In this document: positions 7,196-19,131 of the stretch, piece after piece
Layout: every line of letters starts with the position of its first letter
Position numbering within the stretch: the first letter of the stretch is position 1
NCBI RefSeq assembly: GCF_900090285.1
Contig: NZ_LT607754.1
Location: forward strand, 1,736,001-1,800,000
From: Micromonospora inositola
Lineage (GTDB): Bacteria; Actinomycetota; Actinomycetes; Mycobacteriales; Micromonosporaceae
DNA length: 64,000 nucleotides
Direction of reading: 5' to 3'
Notes under the pieces: model-generated
The model's database searches: none
Seen by the model: the letters and a program-made list of their open reading frames with translations, nothing else
Told to the model about the DNA's origin: nothing
Position numbers and translations under genes: made by a program

Positions 7196-10100
7196 TCAGG
7201 CCCGGTCGGCGGCGCGGCCGATCGCCGCCGCAACCCCGCCGACCCGGTCGGCGAGCAGGCCGAGCGCGCCCACCGCCCGGTCCACCGGGTCGTCTGAGGC
7301 GCCACCGAGCGCGCGGGCCCGCAGGTAACCGGCCTTCACCTCGGCCCACCGCCGGCCCTGCTCGGTTGTGAGCCGGCCACGCAGCTCGGCCAGCTTCAGC
7401 AGGTTCGCCTCGGCGCCCGCGGCCAGGGTCTGCGCCTCGCCGAGGTAGTGGTCGTCGATGACCGCCTCCAGCTCCTCGTCGCTGAGCACCGGGACGATCC
7501 GCTCGGCCAGCTTGTTCATGTTCCGGTACGACCCCTGAAGCTGGAAGGGCGGCTCGGTGCGGGACGCGTCGGACTGCGCCGCCGAGGCGATGTACGCCTG
7601 GTTGTTGGCGAGCACGACCTGCTGCACCCGCAGCAGCTTGCGCAGCACCGAGACGATCTGCTCCAGCTCCACCGGAGAGTAGGGGTGGGCGAGCTGGTCG
7701 GCCCGCACCGAGTCGTCGCCCCGGGCGATGCGGACCAGCAGCTCGACGTCGCCGCGGTCGCGGCCGGAGAGCGGCGCCAGCACCGGGTTCGAGGTGAGCG
7801 CGTTCTCGATGTAGCTGAGCGCGAACACCTCCTCCCGGCCGGAGAGCACGTCGCCGAGGTTCCACACGTCGGCCCGGTTGGCCAGCATGTCCGGCACCCG
7901 GAACCGCTGCCCCGACTCGGTGTACGGGTTGCCCGCCATGCACACCGCGAACCGCTTGCCGCGCAGGTCGTAGGTGCGGGTCCGGCCCTCCCAGACGCCT
8001 TCCATCCGGCGCTGCCCGTCGCAGAGCGAGATGAACTTCTGCAGCAGCTCCGGCGAGGTGTGCTGGATGTCGTCGAGGTAGAGCAGGACGTTGTTGCCCA
8101 GCTCCAGGGCGAAGGAGATCTTCTCCACCTCCTGCCGGGCGGTCGCGTCGGGCGCGTCCGCCGGGTCGAGCGAGGTGACCCCCGAGCCGAGGGCCGGCCC
8201 GTTGACCTTGACGAAGACCAGGCCCAGCCGGCTGGCCACGTACTCCATCAGGGTGGTCTTCCCGTAGCCGGGCGGGGAGATCAACAGCAGCAGGCCGGAC
8301 TGGTCGACCCGCTTGGCGTCGCCGGTCGCGCCGAGCTGGCGGGCCAGGTTGTCGCCGATCAGCGGCAGGTACACCTCGTCGAGCAGCCGGTTGCGGACGA
8401 ACGCGCTCATCACCCGCGGCCGGTACTCCTCCAGCCGCAGCCGGTCCCGCTCGGCGGCCACCAGCGCGTTGCGCCGGCGCTGGTAGTCCCGGTACGCGGG
8501 CGCCAGCTCGGTGCGGAACCGGCGGGTCCGGGCCAGCGTCTCGTCCAGCCGCAGCGTCATCGCCGATCCGACGATCCGGGGATGCGCGCCGAGCAGCCCG
8601 CCGACGGTCTCCGACATCGCCGCCGCAGCCTCGTGGCGCGGCAGGTCGGCGCCGCACAGCTCCACCGCGACCGCCTCCGGCAGGTCGTACCCGGACAGCG
8701 TGCCGCCGTCGGTGGCGAGGAACGCGGTCAGCCACGCCTCGACGAGCTGGTGGCGGCTGGTCAGGTCGCCGTCGAGGGCCCGCAGGTCGGCGTCGAACTC
8801 CCGGGCGGAGCGGGACTGCGGGCCGCCGAGGGCGCGGCGGAACCGGTCCAGCATGGCCCGCGCGCCGGCACCGGTGACGAACCCGGCGGGCGGTCGGGAC
8901 AACTCCTCGAACAGGTACTCCCCGGCGAGGCCGGCCTCCCCGGCGGGCCCGGTCAGCCCGGCGCCGGCCAGGAAGCGGCCCACCTCGGCGGCCAGCTCGG
9001 CGTACAGCCGGTCGATCGCGTCCCCCGCCTCGACCCGGTCGCCGTCCGGCACGGCAGCACGGTCGGGGCGGCCGAAGCGGTCCCGGGCCCGGGCCAGCGA
9101 GGTGGCCCGGGCGGTCCAGCCTGCCCGGGCCGGCTCGGCCGTGCCGAACCGCCAGAAGAGCTGCGCGGCGGCCCGGGCGGCCGGCGGGTAGCGGAGCAGG
9201 CCGGCCCCGGCGTGCAGGCGCAGCAACGCCCGCAGCAGCTCGGTGGCGTCGTGGTCGTGCACGCCGCGCTCGTAGCCCTCGTCGTAGCGGGCCTCGGCGA
9301 ACCGGCGGACCAGCTCGCGCAGGTCACTCGCGTCGGCCGCCGCCGCCCGCAGCCCGTCCAGCGTCAACCCCTCGCGGCCCGTCTCGGCGGCGGTCAGGAG
9401 CGACGTCGCCAGGTACTCCGCGCGGTACACCTCCGGCGACTCGGAGACCAGCAGCTGGTCCCAGAACCGGCGGGTGCGGGCGAACTCCTCGTCCCGGACC
9501 GGGGCCCGGTAGTCGGTGCCGGTCACCGCCACCGCCAGCCCGCCGTCGTGCGGCACCACGCTGACGTCGATCGGCTGGGTGTTCACCGCGAACCGGTGCC
9601 GGCCCAACCGGATCGTCTCGCCGCCGTCGGCGTACAGGTCCAGGCGGTCGCGCAAGCCGCGACCGGCCTCCTGGCGCGCCGCCCGGATCCGGCCGTCCAG
9701 CTCCTCGGCCCGGACCGGGTCGCCGAGGGTACGCAGCTCGTCGACGACCGCGCGCAGCTTGCCCACCATCGGGTCCGCCGCGAAGTACGTGTTGATCTCG
9801 TCCAGCGAGCCGAGCGTGCCGATCCGGCGCCGCACGCTGACCAGGATGCGCTCCGACGACGAGACGAGCCGGTCGGCCCGCCGGGCCCGCTCGTCCAGCA
9901 GCGCCTGCTTCCGCGAGGAGAACGCCTCGTAGATCTCGGTCCGCCGGGTCGCCAGCTCGGCGAGGAAGTCGTCGAACTCCCCGAACCGGGACTCCAGGTC
10001 CTCCACCCGCAGCAGCAGCCGGCCGAGCTGCTCGTCGCAGCGCTCGGCGGTGTCCGCCGCCGCCAGCGCCCCGGTCACCGCCTGCCCGAGCAGCGCGAAC

Positions 10101-12262
10101 TCGGCCGCGAAGCCGGCCCGGCCCTCCACCTCCAGCAGCTCCCGGCGGCGGTTGTCCAGCACCGCTCGGGCCCGGTTGACCGCGCCGAGCACCTCACCGA
10201 CCCGGGTCAGGATCCCGGTGCGTACGGTCGCGTCGGCGATGTCGAGCCCGCCCACCACGTCGGTGATGGTCTGCAGGCCCTCCGCGCGCCCGGCCAGCTC
10301 GTCGCGGACCGCCCCGGCCTCGGCCACCGTGCCGATCGCGGCGCCCTGCCCGGCCAGCCGGTCCACCTCGGCCTGGTAGCCGGTGAACGCGTCGTCCCGG
10401 CGCAGGAAGTCCACCGCCCGGCGGCCGGCGGCCGCCAACTCCCCGTCCAGCCGCTCCGCCAGCTCGTCGATCCGCCCGTGGTCGACGTACCGCAGCTCCC
10501 GCAGGGTCTCCAGGTGGCCGCGCGCCTGACGCAGCCCGGCCAGCTGCCGCACCCAGTCGTCGGCGGTCAGCGGCGCCTCGCCGCGCGCCCGCCGCGCCAG
10601 CGAGGCGATCCCCTGCGCGCTCTCGTCCAGCGCCGTCCGCGCCTGCTCGGTGAGGGCGCGGACCTTCTCGTACTCGTCGAGCACCGCGACGGCGGTGCGC
10701 CGCAGCTCGGCCAGCGGCGCCAGCAGCTCGCCGAGGTCGGCCTCGCCGAGCCAGTGGTAGTGGTCGACGATCCGGGCGCAGGTCGCGATCAGCGCCTCGT
10801 AGACACCCGTGGTGGCCGCGGCGCCGTCGACCATCCGGGCCACCGACAGGCAGTCGGAGATGCCCCGGACCAGGTCGGCGTTGCCGACCCGCTCCAGCGG
10901 GCCGGTGCCCGCCGGCTGGGCCGCCGCGTACGCGTCGGAGACGTACGGCGTCTGCCAGATCTGCATCGGGTGGACCCGGGTCGGCTCCTCGGAGGTGGCC
11001 CGGAACACCACCAGCGTGCCGTCGTCGAAGAGCGAGAAGCCGTGGCACGGGATCGGCGCCGCCACCTCCTTGCGGATGGCGTTGTACGGCAGCAGCAGCG
11101 AGCGGCCGTCGGCCCGGGCGTGGAAGACGTAGAGGACGTCCTCCCCGTTCGGAGAGCGGACCACCTGCTCGAACTCCAGCCCCGTCACGTCGGTGTCGAA
11201 CGTGCGGGTGACCCCGGTTGCCAGGTGGTAGCCGCCCGGGAAGATGATCCCGTGGTCCTCGGGCAGCCGCTGGCAGGCCGGCCCGATGCCGTCGAGCCGG
11301 ACCACCTCCCGGGTCAGCGTGTTGAAGACCAGGTGCCGCCACTCGGTCTCCTTGTACGGCCGCATCCGCAGCAGGATCAGCGGGCCGACCCGGGCCCAGC
11401 TCACGTCGGCGTCGGCCAGGCTCTGCAACGGCTCGTCCACCGGCTCGTCGTAGATGCCCTCGCCGACCTCGGTGTTGTTCTCCAGCTTGACGGTCAGCGT
11501 GCCGCCGACCGTCTCCACGAAGACCTCGTCGGCGATGGAGATGTGCGGGTGCCGGCCGAGGACGTGGTCCTCCCGGGTCGTCTCGATCCACTCGAAGTCG
11601 TGCGACGGCGGGAAGACGTGGTCCCGCTCGCCCCGGTTGTCCAGGTACGCGACGCCGCCGTCGCTGTCGAGCCGCCAGCGCAGCACCCGGATGTCGTCGG
11701 TCCGCGGGCCGGTCTGGAACACCGCCAGCAGCCGCCCGTCGAGCCGGCGCAGCTGCAGCAGCCGGGTCTGCCGGTAGTAGCGGTACAGCTCCGCGAAGTC
11801 GCGCTGGAACACCGGGTCGCGCAGCAGACCGGGCAGCTCGTCCGGGCCGGCCCGGTCGAACCGGAACGTGTCGGAGTCGCTCCCCGCGTCGGCGGCGCTG
11901 CGTTCCCGCTCGAAGCGGTGCAGCGAGAAGACGTCGTCGACCGTCGTCTCCGGCTTCAGTCCGATGAAGACGTTGTAGCCGAAGAGCATCAACCCGCCGA
12001 CCGACACGATGTCCCGTGGCACGCAGTTGTGCCCGGTACGGATCCGCTCGGTGCTGAGCAGGCGCAGCTCGGTGCTGCCGAACACCTCCAGCCGCCGGGC
12101 GTTCAGCCGCTCCGCCCGCCGGGCCAGCTCGCCGGCCTGCCCGACCAGCCGGTTGCGCAGCACCTCGTAGCTGCCCGCGTCCAGCCCGGCCGGGCCGCCG
12201 GCGTCCGCCCCGGCCGGCCCGGCCGCGTTCCCGCCGGTCGGACCGGGCACCGGCTCACTCAC
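7196..12262 (-). CDS. giant AAA+ ATPase (DNA repair ATPase-like, flotillin partner)
   Basis: 1688 residues from the GTG at 12262, which overlaps the flotillin stop by 8 bp (GTGAGTGA); an upstream ATG at 12331 would lie inside the flotillin gene. The region to ~residue 450 is beta-rich with a conserved start (ELRLLSTERIRTGHNCVPRD). Residues ~450-880 are helical and coiled-coil. An AAA+ module lies near residues 1290-1560 with Walker A SPPGYGKTTL (~1330) and Walker B NVLLYLDDIQ (~1395). Homologues are annotated DNA repair ATPase (DUF3686 type), but a DNA role is not demonstrated. The gene order suggests a flotillin-associated membrane remodelling or stress ATPase; that is inference. Confidence 0.82.
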   Translation of the reverse strand: MSEPVPGPTGGNAAGPAGADAGGPAGLDAGSYEVLRNRLVGQAGELARRAERLNARRLEVFGSTELRLLSTERIRTGHNCVPRDIVSVGGLMLFGYNVFIGLKPETTVDDVFSLHRFERERSAADAGSDSDTFRFDRAGPDELPGLLRDPVFQRDFAELYRYYRQTRLLQLRRLDGRLLAVFQTGPRTDDIRVLRWRLDSDGGVAYLDNRGERDHVFPPSHDFEWIETTREDHVLGRHPHISIADEVFVETVGGTLTVKLENNTEVGEGIYDEPVDEPLQSLADADVSWARVGPLILLRMRPYKETEWRHLVFNTLTREVVRLDGIGPACQRLPEDHGIIFPGGYHLATGVTRTFDTDVTGLEFEQVVRSPNGEDVLYVFHARADGRSLLLPYNAIRKEVAAPIPCHGFSLFDDGTLVVFRATSEEPTRVHPMQIWQTPYVSDAYAAAQPAGTGPLERVGNADLVRGISDCLSVARMVDGAAATTGVYEALIATCARIVDHYHWLGEADLGELLAPLAELRRTAVAVLDEYEKVRALTEQARTALDESAQGIASLARRARGEAPLTADDWVRQLAGLRQARGHLETLRELRYVDHGRIDELAERLDGELAAAGRRAVDFLRRDDAFTGYQAEVDRLAGQGAAIGTVAEAGAVRDELAGRAEGLQTITDVVGGLDIADATVRTGILTRVGEVLGAVNRARAVLDNRRRELLEVEGRAGFAAEFALLGQAVTGALAAADTAERCDEQLGRLLLRVEDLESRFGEFDDFLAELATRRTEIYEAFSSRKQALLDERARRADRLVSSSERILVSVRRRIGTLGSLDEINTYFAADPMVGKLRAVVDELRTLGDPVRAEELDGRIRAARQEAGRGLRDRLDLYADGGETIRLGRHRFAVNTQPIDVSVVPHDGGLAVAVTGTDYRAPVRDEEFARTRRFWDQLLVSESPEVYRAEYLATSLLTAAETGREGLTLDGLRAAAADASDLRELVRRFAEARYDEGYERGVHDHDATELLRALLRLHAGAGLLRYPPAARAAAQLFWRFGTAEPARAGWTARATSLARARDRFGRPDRAAVPDGDRVEAGDAIDRLYAELAAEVGRFLAGAGLTGPAGEAGLAGEYLFEELSRPPAGFVTGAGARAMLDRFRRALGGPQSRSAREFDADLRALDGDLTSRHQLVEAWLTAFLATDGGTLSGYDLPEAVAVELCGADLPRHEAAAAMSETVGGLLGAHPRIVGSAMTLRLDETLARTRRFRTELAPAYRDYQRRRNALVAAERDRLRLEEYRPRVMSAFVRNRLLDEVYLPLIGDNLARQLGATGDAKRVDQSGLLLLISPPGYGKTTLMEYVASRLGLVFVKVNGPALGSGVTSLDPADAPDATARQEVEKISFALELGNNVLLYLDDIQHTSPELLQKFISLCDGQRRMEGVWEGRTRTYDLRGKRFAVCMAGNPYTESGQRFRVPDMLANRADVWNLGDVLSGREEVFALSYIENALTSNPVLAPLSGRDRGDVELLVRIARGDDSVRADQLAHPYSPVELEQIVSVLRKLLRVQQVVLANNQAYIASAAQSDASRTEPPFQLQGSYRNMNKLAERIVPVLSDEELEAVIDDHYLGEAQTLAAGAEANLLKLAELRGRLTTEQGRRWAEVKAGYLRARALGGASDDPVDRAVGALGLLADRVGGVAAAIGRAADRA

Positions 12263-14276
12263 CGGCGCGCTGCCGCGGGCCGGCCAGGGCAGCCAGCGGG
12301 GTCTCGGCCACGCCGAGGCGCTGCGCTGCATTCAGCAGTTCCTGGAGCTTGCCCTTGTCCGCGCCGCCGGCCCGCATCTGCTGTAGCAGGAAAGCGGAGA
12401 GGGTCAGGTTCTGCACGTCACCGGTGTTCACCGAGCCGAGCATCCGGGTCAGGTCGTCGGTGAAGCTGGCGGTGCCGTCCAGCCACGGCTGGGTGAGCCC
12501 GCGGGCCACGTCCGAGTGCGCGACGAACCCGTCCACGCTCTTGCCGAACGAGATCGAGCTGAGCAGCCGGTCGAAGAAGACGCTGTCCCCGCCGACGATG
12601 TCGATGTTCGCCTTCTCCAGGCCGGTGGAGACCAGCCTCGCCTGCGCCTCGGCGACCTGCCGCTGCGCGTCCAGCCCGGCGAGCCGGACCTCCTTCTCCA
12701 GCTCCAGCCGCAGCCGGTACTCCTCGTGCTGGCGGGTGGCGTCGTCCAGCGCGGCCATCGCCGCCGCCTTGTCGGTGAGGCCCTCGGCCTCGCCCTTCAG
12801 CTTCTCGCGTACCGCCTCGGCGGCCAGCAGGGCCTTGTCACGCTCGACGGCGACCTCGGCGCGGCCCACCTTCTCGATCGCCTCGGCGCCCCGCTCGCGG
12901 ACCTGCACCTCGGCCAGGCCGGCGGCCGCCGCCTCGGCCTGCAGGCCCTCGGCCAGCCGGATCTTCGCCCGGGTGTCCAGCTCCGCGGCCTGCTGCCGGG
13001 CCTCGGCGAGGACCAGCTCCTCACGGGCCTTGAACTTGGCCGCCGCCTCGGCCGCCTCCGCCGCCTTGATGTCCTTGACCAGGTTCTCCTGCGCCTCGGC
13101 CTCGGCCTGGATCACCACCGCCTGGCGGGTCCGCTCGGCCTCCTCGACGACCCGCAGCCGCTTGATGTTCTCCTCCTGCTCGGCGACGGTCTTCTCGACC
13201 GCGATCCGCTCCCGGACGACCTCGGCGATGGCCCGCTTCTCCGCCTCGACCTCCTTGTCCTTGGCGATCGTGCTGAGCTCGGTCTCCCGCTGCCGGCCGA
13301 TGACCTCCAGCATCCGGTCCTTCTCGATCCGCTCGGTCTCGATCGCGATGACCCGCTCGCGGTTCTTCTCGGCGACCGCGATCTCCCGGCTCCGGTTCTC
13401 GTGCTGGATGCCCAACTGCTCGTCGGTACGGATGTTCGCCGTCTCGGCCCGCAGCCGCTCCTCCGCCCGGACCCGGGTGATCTCGGCCTCCTCGCGGGCC
13501 CGTACCGTCTCGATCTCGCGCCGCTGCTTGGCCTCGGCGTCCGCCTGCCGCCGCTCCAGCTCCAGGATCGCCTCCCGGGCGTCGACGTTCTGCCGGGTGA
13601 TCTCCTTCTCCTCGCTGCGCTGGAACTCGTTGGTCCGCACGTGTTCGATCGCGGTCAGCTCGGTGATCTTCCGGATGCCCTGGGCGTCGAGGATGTTCTT
13701 GGCGTCCAGCTGGGACATCGGGGTCTGCTCGAGGAAGTCGATCGCCGCGTCCTCCAGGCTGTAGCCGTTGAGGTCGGTACCGATCACGCGGATGATCTGG
13801 TCACGGAACTCGTCGCGCTTCGTGTAGAGGTCGACGAAGTCGAGCTGCTTGCCCACCGTCTTCAGCGCCTCCGAGAACTTGGCGTTGAACAGCTCCTGGA
13901 GGGTCTCCCGGTCGCTGGCCCGGGCGGTGCCGATGGCCTGCGCCACCTTGATCACGTCCTCGGTGGTCTTGTTGACCCGGACGAAGAAGGTGATCCGGAT
14001 GTCGGCCCGGATGTTGTCCCGACAGATCAGACCCTCGTTGCCGGTCCGCTCGATGTCGATCGTCTTCACCGAGATGTCCATGATCTCGGCCTTGTGCAGC
14101 ACCGGCAGGACGACCGCTCCGGTGAACGTGACGTCCACCCGGCGGACCTTCGAGACGATCAACGCCTTGCCCTGTTCCACCTTGCGGAACAGGCGGCTGA
14201 CCAGGAAGACCACGCCGAGCGCGACGAGCAGGAGGACGGCGAGCAGTACGCCGATCCCGGTGGTGACGACATCCAT
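12255..14276 (-). CDS. flotillin-like SPFH/Band 7 protein (YqiK type)
   Basis: 673 residues. The N-terminal membrane anchor (TTGIGVLLAVLLLVALGVVF, residues ~5-24) is followed by an SPFH domain (VEQGKALIVSKVRRVDVTF to about residue 220). Next comes a very long Glu/Ala/Arg-rich coiled coil (residues ~225-520) with the repeating EA-type heptads of flotillins, and a helical C-terminus. Flotillins oligomerise on the inner membrane and organise microdomains. The gene lies between a YqiJ/NfeD-like gene and the giant ATPase. No strong Shine-Dalgarno precedes the ATG at 14276, although the N-terminal anchor starts well there. Confidence 0.9.
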   Translation of the reverse strand: MDVVTTGIGVLLAVLLLVALGVVFLVSRLFRKVEQGKALIVSKVRRVDVTFTGAVVLPVLHKAEIMDISVKTIDIERTGNEGLICRDNIRADIRITFFVRVNKTTEDVIKVAQAIGTARASDRETLQELFNAKFSEALKTVGKQLDFVDLYTKRDEFRDQIIRVIGTDLNGYSLEDAAIDFLEQTPMSQLDAKNILDAQGIRKITELTAIEHVRTNEFQRSEEKEITRQNVDAREAILELERRQADAEAKQRREIETVRAREEAEITRVRAEERLRAETANIRTDEQLGIQHENRSREIAVAEKNRERVIAIETERIEKDRMLEVIGRQRETELSTIAKDKEVEAEKRAIAEVVRERIAVEKTVAEQEENIKRLRVVEEAERTRQAVVIQAEAEAQENLVKDIKAAEAAEAAAKFKAREELVLAEARQQAAELDTRAKIRLAEGLQAEAAAAGLAEVQVRERGAEAIEKVGRAEVAVERDKALLAAEAVREKLKGEAEGLTDKAAAMAALDDATRQHEEYRLRLELEKEVRLAGLDAQRQVAEAQARLVSTGLEKANIDIVGGDSVFFDRLLSSISFGKSVDGFVAHSDVARGLTQPWLDGTASFTDDLTRMLGSVNTGDVQNLTLSAFLLQQMRAGGADKGKLQELLNAAQRLGVAETPLAALAGPRQRAGE

Positions 14277-14447
14277 GGCTGAGCGCGCGGCGCCGGTCCG
14301 GTGGTGCGGGCGGGCCGGTGGGTGCCGCGCATCCTCCTTTCAGTGGGAGTGCGGGGGCAGCGTGGGACGGACCGGCGGCGGGGTGAGGCGTCCGGTCGAG
14401 GCTCGAAGGGGTGACCCACCGTCGCGGGAGAGGGTCACCGGCGGCGG

Positions 14448-15086
14448 TTACATCGGTGCGTGACGCGAAGGATCGGGGTCGAAGGCGATGCCGGCGGGCA
14501 TGACCCAGAAGAACTCGCCCTCGACGTCGTAGTCGTAGATCAGCGCTGAACTGCCGGCACGCAGTGCTTCGGCACCGGGCTGGCGGACCTGGACGACCGC
14601 GGACGAGCCGTCCGCCGCCGTCACCTCCGCCTGCCCGAAGTCGGCCGTCACCCGCCCGGTGCGGATGGTGCAGAGGCTGCCGACGAAGGCGTGCCGGCTG
14701 GACTCCGTACCGGTGGGGAAGAGTCGGCCGAGCGGCACGGCGACCAGCCGGGTCACCAGCCAGGCGCCGAGCAGGGCCGCCAGCAGCACCCCGACCGATA
14801 TGGCGACCCGGGCGGCGACGCCGAGGCCGAGCTCGTCGAGCAGCACGGTGCCGGCCAGGCTGACGAACCAGGCCACCGCGACGAGCAGGGAGAACACGAT
14901 GGTGGCGGGCAGTCCGCCGAGCCCGAGGCCGGCCAGGACGCCACCCGGCACCCCGTCCACGTCGAGGTCGTCGCCGAGGTCCAGCACCCCGGTCAACACC
15001 AGCAGCCAGTAGCCGACGACCACCAGCAGCAGGAAGCTGAACAGCACGGTGGGGAAGCTGAGCGCCGTACCGAGGAAGCCGGCCAC
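14448..15086 (-). CDS. YqiJ/NfeD-like membrane protein (OB-fold, flotillin partner)
   Basis: 212 residues from the GTG at 15086, preceded by GGAGGGGG at good spacing; longer in-frame starts lack this and add a non-conserved extension. There are three to four hydrophobic segments (PTVLFSFLLLVVVGYWLLVL, ATIVFSLLVAVAWFVSLAG, VAARVAISVGVLLAALLGAW), then a soluble beta-rich C-terminal domain (~residues 140-205: GSLCTIRTGRVTADFGQAEV, SALIYDYDVEGEFFWV) with the OB-fold look of NfeD/YqiJ. In other bacteria such proteins are encoded next to flotillins and bind them. The 171-bp gap before the flotillin gene shows no clear hairpin, so the three genes probably form one operon. Confidence 0.8.
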   Translation of the reverse strand: MAGFLGTALSFPTVLFSFLLLVVVGYWLLVLTGVLDLGDDLDVDGVPGGVLAGLGLGGLPATIVFSLLVAVAWFVSLAGTVLLDELGLGVAARVAISVGVLLAALLGAWLVTRLVAVPLGRLFPTGTESSRHAFVGSLCTIRTGRVTADFGQAEVTAADGSSAVVQVRQPGAEALRAGSSALIYDYDVEGEFFWVMPAGIAFDPDPSRHAPM

Positions 15087-15298
15087 CGCAATCCCCCTCC
15101 CCGTTACCGGCGAGGCCTCACACCCACCGACAGGGTGATCGTGGCATGGGGTGTCAATGTGCGACGGCCGCCGAACGGCTGGTTCACGCCGGCCTGACCA
15201 GGCAGGAATGCGCACGCCGATCGATCCGACGGCACCGCGACCGGGCCAACGGTCGGCGCGGCGCGGGGGCACCAGCGGCTGGTCCAGGGGTGGTCGGA

Positions 15299-16549
15299 TC
15301 AGCCCGGCAGGGTGATCCGGCCATTTACCGCGGCGGCGGCGATGTCGGTGCGGTGCTGCGAGCCGGCCAGCTCGATGCCGCGTACCAGGGCGTAGGCGGC
15401 ATCCCGCGCGGCGACCAGGTCCGGGCCGGTGGCCGTACCGCAGAGGACCCGGCCGCCGGCGGAGAGCAACGCGCCGTCGGCGGCCCGACGGACGGTGCCC
15501 GCGTGGATGACCCCCGGGCGGTCCGCGCCGGTGATCACGTCGCCGGTGCGCGGCGCGGCCGGGTAGTCGGCGGCGGCCACGACCACGGTGACCGCGGCGC
15601 CGTCCCGCCAGCGCAGCGGCGGGTGCGCGGCCAGCGTGCCGGTGGCGGCGGCGTGCAGCAGCCCGGCGAGCGGCGTCTCCAGCAGCGCCAGGACGACCTG
15701 GGTCTCCGGGTCGCCGAACCGGGCGTTGAACTCGATCACCCGCGGCCCGGCGGCGGTGACCGCCAGCCCGACGTAGAGCAGCCCGGCGAAGGGCGTGCCC
15801 CGGCGGCGCATCTCGGCCAGGGTGGGGTGTACGACGTCGCGCATCACCTCGTCGACCAGGCCGGGCGGCGCCCAGGGCAGCGGCGCGTACGCCCCCATGC
15901 CGCCGGTGTTCGGCCCGGTGTCGCCGTCACCGACCCGCTTGAAGTCCTGCGCGGGCAGCAGCGGCAGCGCCGCCTCGCCGTCGGTGACCACGAAGAGCGA
16001 GACCTCGGGGCCGGCGAGGTACTCCTCGATCACCACCCGGCCGCACTCCTCGGCGTGCTTCAGCGCCGTGGCCCGCTCCTCGGTGACGACGACGCCCTTG
16101 CCGGCGGCCAGGCCGTCGTTCTTCACCACGTACGGCGGCCCGAACTCGTCCAGCGCGGCGCCGGCGCTCTCGGCGTCCGTGCAGGTGAAGGCGCGCGCGG
16201 TCGGCACGCCGGCGGCGAGCATCACGTCCTTCGCGAACGCCTTGGAGCCTTCCAGCCGGGCCGCCTCCGCCGACGGACCGAACGCGGGGATGCCCTTGGC
16301 GCGCACCGCGTCGGCGACCCCGGCCACCAGCGGCGCCTCCGGCCCGATCACCACCAGGTCGGCCCCGACCTCCACGGCGAGCCCCGCGACGGCCGAGGGG
16401 TCGGTCGCATCGACCGACCGCAGCTCCGCCACGGCGGCGATGCCAGGGTTACCCGGCGCCGCGATCAACGCCTCGACGGAAGCATCGGCTGCCAGCCCGA
16501 GCGCGAGCGCATGCTCCCGCCCCCCACCACCCACAAGAAGAACCCGCAC
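15299..16549 (-). CDS. purD: phosphoribosylamine-glycine ligase
   Basis: 416-residue GAR synthetase, purine pathway step 2 (phosphoribosylamine + glycine + ATP). The N-terminal nucleotide fold begins VRVLLVGGGGREHALALGLA. The ATP-grasp domain shows GSKAFAKDVMLAAGVPT, GDGDTGPNTGGMGAYAPLPW and the metal-binding EFNARFGDPETQ, followed by the B-type C-terminal domain. The GTG at 16549 gives the canonical N-terminus; longer in-frame starts do not. It is about 170 bp downstream of purA on the same strand, separated by a large palindromic repeat, so the two purine genes may or may not be co-transcribed. Confidence 0.96.
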   Translation of the reverse strand: MRVLLVGGGGREHALALGLAADASVEALIAAPGNPGIAAVAELRSVDATDPSAVAGLAVEVGADLVVIGPEAPLVAGVADAVRAKGIPAFGPSAEAARLEGSKAFAKDVMLAAGVPTARAFTCTDAESAGAALDEFGPPYVVKNDGLAAGKGVVVTEERATALKHAEECGRVVIEEYLAGPEVSLFVVTDGEAALPLLPAQDFKRVGDGDTGPNTGGMGAYAPLPWAPPGLVDEVMRDVVHPTLAEMRRRGTPFAGLLYVGLAVTAAGPRVIEFNARFGDPETQVVLALLETPLAGLLHAAATGTLAAHPPLRWRDGAAVTVVVAAADYPAAPRTGDVITGADRPGVIHAGTVRRAADGALLSAGGRVLCGTATGPDLVAARDAAYALVRGIELAGSQHRTDIAAAAVNGRITLPG

Positions 16550-16583
16550 GACCCCGCATCCTACTGACCCCACCCCTGGACCC

Positions 16584-16646
16584 CGTTGATCATGAGGTTG
16601 GCGGGTGCTTCGATCACGAATCAGCCCGCCCACCTCATGATCAACG
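16584..16646. repeat. Intergenic palindromic repeat (copy 1)
   Basis: CGTTGATCATGAGGTTGGCG.. (from 16584) and ..CGCCCACCTCATGATCAACG (to 16646) form an imperfect inverted repeat: 21-nt core arms match at 20 positions, with a 19-nt loop. The outer motif GTTGATCAWGARGTT recurs in the palindrome at 37705-37783. It lies between purA and purD and may act as a terminator or be a REP/MITE-like element. Confidence 0.75.
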
Positions 16647-16718
16647 CCACGACTCACCACCGTGGACCACCCCACCTGCCCCACCACCCCCTGTGGACAA
16701 CCGCCCCACAGAAGCCGG

Positions 16719-19131
<2,413 letters not shown>

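Follow-up and report, generated by a model that had tools for sequence, protein, structure and literature searches.

The locus raises the question of what a giant AAA+ ATPase, many of whose 120 listed relatives carry the name 'DNA repair ATPase', does in one gene set with a flotillin and a YqiJ/NfeD-like membrane protein. In the window, by which we mean the whole stretch of 64,000 nucleotides that was analysed, three genes lie in the order YqiJ/NfeD-like, flotillin and giant ATPase (Table 1), in a genome of 6.7 Mb that forms one contig. The original prediction had described them as a trio of minus-strand genes in which the start of the ATPase and the stop of the flotillin share 8 bp, and this was confirmed by the ORF coordinates and by the overlap sequence itself. 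Recurrence of the trio in several phyla shows that its genes have not come together by chance. The YqiJ/NfeD-like ORF spans 14448-15272 (minus strand), its GTG at 15086 is preceded by a GGAGGGGGA stretch, and the intergenic distance to the flotillin is 171 bp. The ATPase ORF (7196-12331, minus strand) also offers a longer ATG start at 12331; the predicted model has a pLDDT below 50 at residues 1-28, and translation from the GTG at 12262, giving 1688 aa, is plausible. The flotillin stop lies at most 93 bases from the codon of ATPase residue 32 in 33 of 133 loci (median 140; 86 in the window); tight flotillin-ATPase spacing is common across loci, though not universal. A strong AAAGGAGG was also seen at window positions 14333-14340 (minus strand); it precedes the flotillin ATG by about 56 bases and lacks an in-frame start codon at a usual distance.

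Table 1. Coordinates of the three genes and of the ATPase parts in the window
Feature	Position	Strand	Remarks
YqiJ/NfeD-like membrane protein, 212 aa	14448..15086	-	GTG start; three hydrophobic stretches, soluble C-terminal part
Putative YqiK-type flotillin (SPFH, long coiled coil), 673 aa	12255..14276	-	one N-terminal hydrophobic stretch
Giant AAA+ ATPase, 1688 aa	7196..12262	-	GTG start; DUF3686, DUF7902, AAA, AAA_5
Overlap of flotillin stop (TGA) and ATPase GTG start, 8 bp	12255..12262	-	sequence GTGAGTGA
WD40-like beta-propeller, ATPase residues 66-439	10946..12067	-	predicted model; inside DUF3686
Long helical/coiled region, ATPase residues 455-876	9635..10900	-	predicted models; includes DUF7902 at 624-708
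AAA+ module, ATPase residues 1274-1630	7373..8443	-	MoxR-like by predicted fold
Walker A SPPGYGKTT, residues 1329-1337	8252..8278	-	residues 1329-1336 identical in 139/139 aligned sequences
Walker B LYLDD, residues 1394-1398	8069..8083	-	D1397 and D1398 identical in 139/139 aligned sequences

A flotillin/YqiJ/AAA+ operon has been described as a novel PspA association (PMC11237479, mSystems 2024), together with abbreviated operons lacking PspA, which are more widespread, occur in bacteria and archaea and might work with PspA encoded elsewhere. The window trio resembles that operon in its gene set, in an ATPase combining beta-propeller, coiled coil and AAA+ module, and in a YqiJ/YuaF protein with three transmembrane segments. 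Models and fold ranking place an N-terminal beta-propeller and a coiled coil in the AAA+ ATPase, and band-7/flotillin and YqiJ/YuaF-like three-segment genes adjoin it, the similarity to YqiJ being moderate. It differs from the full form in having no linked CesT/Tir-PspA dyad, and because this dyad is not linked the trio fits the abbreviated form; we class it as an abbreviated operon of the type described in PMC11237479. The operon section of that paper names neither DUF3686 nor DUF7902 and gives no AAA+ clade placement or co-inheritance counts. Full-text searches of the open PMC library, which covers openly accessible main texts, found no paper for 'DUF3686' and none that joins 'DNA repair ATPase' with SPFH. 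The view that the system is poorly described therefore holds in part: no experiment was found in the literature, but the operon had already been described in silico in PMC11237479. Beyond this published operon type, the interest of the locus lies in the co-inheritance of its genes, in the MoxR-like fold of the ATPase and in a database label that the evidence here fails to support.

With respect to the two membrane components, the sequence of the window flotillin has no Pfam Band_7 match of its own; among the aligned members of its class, 4 of 13 do have one, and the profile of the class aligns with E. coli YqiK at an hhalign probability of 99.9% (E 1.5e-33). The window flotillin thus appears, by homology of its class only, to be an SPFH/Band_7 protein. 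The profile of the YqiJ/NfeD-like class gave a moderate match to E. coli YqiJ (probability 75%, E 2.6e-5), while against the YuaF structure 2k14 the E value was only 0.93; a Pfam search with the window protein gave no match, and an NfeD match was present in 1 of 12 proteins of this small-protein class. The E. coli YqiJ-YqiK pair has the same two membrane components in the same order, with strong homology for YqiK and moderate for YqiJ, but differs in that no ATPase gene lies downstream of yqiK. YqiJ/YuaF proteins were paired with SPFH2 flotillins in 2009, in a paper whose main text does not contain the words ATPase or DNA repair (PMC2636767). In Shewanella a terminator has been located 3' of the flotillin-like gene SO1377, whose knock-out changes iron metabolism (PMC1468410, 2006). 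YqiJ-YqiK-type pairs therefore exist without the ATPase, as E. coli, the Shewanella terminator (PMC1468410) and the presence of DUF3686 in 0 of 14 control genomes indicate.

Whether the ATPase in turn exists without the flotillin was answered with three draws of whole genomes, 790 in total, scanned with DUF3686 and with flotillin profile A3; this profile was built only from ATPase-linked flotillins, so that flotillin-only genomes are few partly by construction, while the direction from ATPase to flotillin is unaffected. The draw from the window's own phylum (296 genomes) held 8 genomes with both, none with the ATPase only and none with the flotillin only. From the phylum of G298 (377 genomes) the respective numbers were 61, 0 and 4 (G403, G436, G453 and G676), and from the phylum of the Myxococcus genome G296, to which locus L099 belongs (117 genomes), 48, 0 and 1 (G717). 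The flotillin class was thus found in 117 of the 117 ATPase-bearing genomes, a co-occurrence for which Fisher values overstate the significance because the genomes are phylogenetically clumped; the outcome named as refuting the original prediction, ATPase homologues mostly lacking a flotillin gene, did not occur. At least two of the flotillin-only genomes have the match at the edge of a contig: in G717 it is followed by 4 bases, and in G403 it reaches base 3 of the contig on the side where the ATPase would follow.

The two genes are also neighbours. They were adjacent in 56 of the 61 genomes of the G298 group, the other five having them on different contigs. A flotillin ORF was found in 135 of 140 ATPase loci read, and by a stricter count 132 of 138 have it next to the ATPase in the same orientation. 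Where it is missing, the sequence of L044 and L109 ends 30 bp upstream of the ATPase, and L210, L231 and L232 have 8.8-9.1 kb upstream without a flotillin, which their genomes (G350, G738 and G727) carry on another contig; the gene beside the separate flotillin of G350 (L251) looks YqiJ-like by eye. An NfeD-like gene was recognised in at least 110 of the 127 loci having at least 3.5 kb upstream, a lower bound because the protein is poorly conserved. Divergence of ATPase and flotillin ran parallel (r = 0.93 over 128 pairs), and did so within the actinobacterial pairs as well (r = 0.81, n = 79; maximum of 500 permutations 0.15), while the nearest neighbours of the two proteins were in agreement for just 75 of the 128. 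Of the 140 loci, 80 represent best hits to an actinobacterial profile. In the two-copy genomes G128 and G182 we noticed split ORFs, of the ATPase in L013 and of the flotillin in L016 and L017, which reflect decay or sequencing error.

The ATPase itself matches DUF3686 over residues 45-503 (E 2e-221) and DUF7902 over residues 624-708 (E 7e-29) in Pfam, with weak AAA and AAA_5 matches above cut-off, and no NCBIfam model at its cut-off. AAA_5 matched in 35 of 35 family members, where AAA and AAA_22 match as well. The family comprises 6134 protein clusters at E <= 0.001 among 8000 candidates scored, and the closest sequences among the matches listed are from Micromonospora. The proposed structure prediction of the ATPase was run and yielded a WD40-like propeller, a helical region and a C-terminal AAA+ module with a MoxR-like fold, so that the predicted models show both the beta-rich N-terminal region and the long coiled coil anticipated earlier. 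In Walker B, Asp-Asp replaces the usual Asp-Glu, and N1445, R1463 and R1580, which we take to be sensor 1, arginine finger and sensor 2, respectively, are invariant in 139 of 139 aligned ATPases. The three genes, the domain layout, these conserved motifs and the co-inheritance with the flotillin are computed results.

When the model of the AAA+ module was ranked by fold, CbbQ/NorQ came closest and MoxR and dynein members ranked high; in the model, a beta-hairpin follows Walker B ahead of the next core strand. In a PDB sequence search the P-loop matched NVL/Rix7 (E 3.8e-6), Cdc48 and RuvB, and midasin weakly, among the best 60 of 150 matches. The module is accordingly MoxR-like by its predicted fold, while its sequence gives a mixed picture, with AAA_5 matched throughout the family but P-loop matches that point to NVL/Rix7, Cdc48 and RuvB and not to MoxR. 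MoxR ATPases help protein complexes to mature in a chaperone-like manner (PMC3893208), and VWA proteins are their typical partners (PMC13036017). The window ATPase differs from CbbQ, NorQ and RavA in carrying its AAA+ module C-terminally in a protein of 1688 residues, in having a flotillin as gene partner and in having no sequence-level placement among MoxR members.

We favour, at a probability of about 55%, the explanation that the trio is a flotillin-scaffolded chaperone or remodeller of the MoxR class for envelope stress, in other words an SPFH machine that is energy-driven. In this view the YqiJ-like protein would make up a scaffold or cage at the membrane together with the YqiK-type flotillin. 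The giant ATPase, a soluble MoxR-class AAA+ remodeller, would work at this structure or within it and would probably form a ring; its WD40-like propeller would serve for recognition or docking, and its long helical region as a spacer. Its clients may be protein complexes associated with the membrane, which it would refold, extract or assemble during envelope stress, in company with PspA wherever that protein occurs. The flotillin-ATPase complex, the hexamerisation of the ATPase, its substrate and its role in stress are inferred. The co-inheritance and parallel divergence of ATPase and flotillin, the fold of the AAA+ module with its invariant motifs, and the gene context with PspA and YjfI or CesT/Tir in L022, L025 and PMC11237479 speak for this explanation; the P-loop sequence matches, the pairs without an ATPase and the rarity of PspA next to the trio speak against it. 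A scaffold-positioned MoxR remodeller is proposed because SPFH proteins build membrane-attached cages, of which those of HflK/C can contain hexameric AAA+ proteases (PMC11260169), and because MoxR ATPases are chaperone-like (PMC3893208). The HflK/C-FtsH and prohibitin-AAA protease assemblies share with the trio the combination of an SPFH scaffold with an AAA+ enzyme. FtsH, however, is a membrane protease, whereas the window ATPase has no strongly hydrophobic stretch, carries the WD40-like propeller and has no protease family among its Pfam matches. In a more far-reaching form, which we put forward tentatively and hold to be rather doubtful, a flotillin cage would house or dock a giant non-proteolytic remodeller of the MoxR class with a WD40-like head for recognition. 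Its co-inheritance with the flotillin would be obligate, and its targets would be envelope complexes or PspA polymers. If this is true, a third SPFH-AAA+ machine would stand beside HflK/C-FtsH and prohibitin-AAA protease, and bacteria would own a flotillin/ESCRT-III remodelling system powered by ATP whose AAA+ clade is not that of Vps4. If ATPases of this family power flotillin assemblies, PspA/flotillin systems would gain a candidate motor outside the Vps4 clade, and the role and energising of bacterial flotillin pairs would become testable.

The annotation offers a different answer, namely that the protein is a DNA-repair ATPase, and we consider this highly improbable. The Pfam description of DUF3686, whose cut-off is passed, speaks of DNA repair, but the label comes from this description only. 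RuvB models matched in 27 of 27 AAA+ modules and RuvB_N in 32 of 35 C-terminal halves; in the window ATPase, however, the RuvB matches cover about 40 residues round Walker A and score 17-21 bits against cut-offs of 282-299, and no match to a DNA-repair ATPase model rose above a curated cut-off. Also, the 7 Pfam families listed for the ATPase include no DNA-binding domain, and its constant partner is a membrane scaffold, while in the label's favour 8 non-actinobacterial loci have a gene for a type IB topoisomerase close to the trio. The earlier doubt over it was therefore justified, and reading the ATPase as a membrane remodeller is better supported. If such ATPases power flotillin assemblies, the name 'DNA repair ATPase' misdirects the annotation of a large family. 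An anti-phage or conflict system acting through membrane disruption or protection is very unlikely too. It would agree with the patchy distribution of the ATPase, found in 8 of 296 genomes of its own phylum, absent from the same-genus genome G204 and present in 12 plasmid-collection records, but PADLOC gave weak P-loop matches only and 50,697 phage records gave no match.

Two further alternatives concern what the ATPase would act on. As a bacterial counterpart of Vps4, it would disassemble PspA (ESCRT-III) polymers recruited to a flotillin patch, which we regard as unlikely. PspA adjoins the trio in only two of the loci read: in L022 (977-14181, on the Pseudomonas fluorescens plasmid pQBR103) the trio closes a series of YjfI, PspA, rhomboid, DUF2491, DUF350, DUF1190 and glutathionylspermidine synthase genes, and in L025 (Hymenobacter) a CesT/Tir protein and PspA precede it. 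Neither of these PspA proteins had a match in the other loci among the 140, by single-sequence queries of limited sensitivity. In the window genome the single PspA match (C1:256265) and the trio (about 1.75 Mb) are about 1.49 Mb apart. Searches for PspA were also positive in all 13 further genomes with the ATPase and in 5 of the 7 plasmid-collection records covered, but this says little because 9 of 14 control genomes have PspA too. ESCRT-like roles have been proposed for PspA systems with AAA+ ATPases (PMC11237479), and the SPFH protein YdjI is required for membrane localisation of PspA in B. subtilis (PMC8581546). The P-loop matches of the window ATPase include classical AAA proteins, while the ranking by predicted fold puts its AAA+ module beside MoxR and dynein, and the model shows the hairpin; to our knowledge Vps4 has no beta-hairpin of this kind, and its absence from the fold-ranking list carries no weight for or against. 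Somewhat less improbable, though still doubtful, is that the ATPase, like NorQ or CbbQ, matures one membrane enzyme, for example by metal insertion, and that the flotillin only localises it. The predicted fold, ranking with CbbQ and NorQ, is consistent with this, as are the need for NorQ/NorD in iron insertion into nitric oxide reductase (PMC9976466) and the iron phenotype of the SO1377 knock-out (PMC1468410). Against it, the largest recurring flanking families (the 25 largest clusters of flanking ORFs) are confined to one side of the divide between actinobacterial and other loci, the exceptions being some mixed clusters, a few of them smaller and one in 21 loci, which is called an ABC-transporter ATPase because its Hymenobacter member is annotated as such.

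Some neighbours of the trio were noticed besides. A PucR-type regulator gene (L077, 5372-6457, minus strand) belongs to a cluster in 35 actinobacterial loci upstream of the trio, with 29 of its 35 ORFs on the strand opposite to it; the one representative scanned has GGDEF-like and PucR helix-turn-helix matches, and the gene is a candidate regulator of the trio. A protein with two TrkA-N matches (L069, 14053-16053, plus strand; one representative scanned) is encoded near the trio in 16 actinobacterial loci, and a potassium channel has been noted in related PspA operons (PMC11237479). The type IB topoisomerase, of bacterial type in the one representative scanned (L219, 11017-12135), is probably a lineage-specific neighbour. 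In the window, the next upstream genes (15299-18851, minus strand) resemble phosphoribosylamine-glycine ligase (purD) and adenylosuccinate synthase (purA), by reading of the sequence alone.
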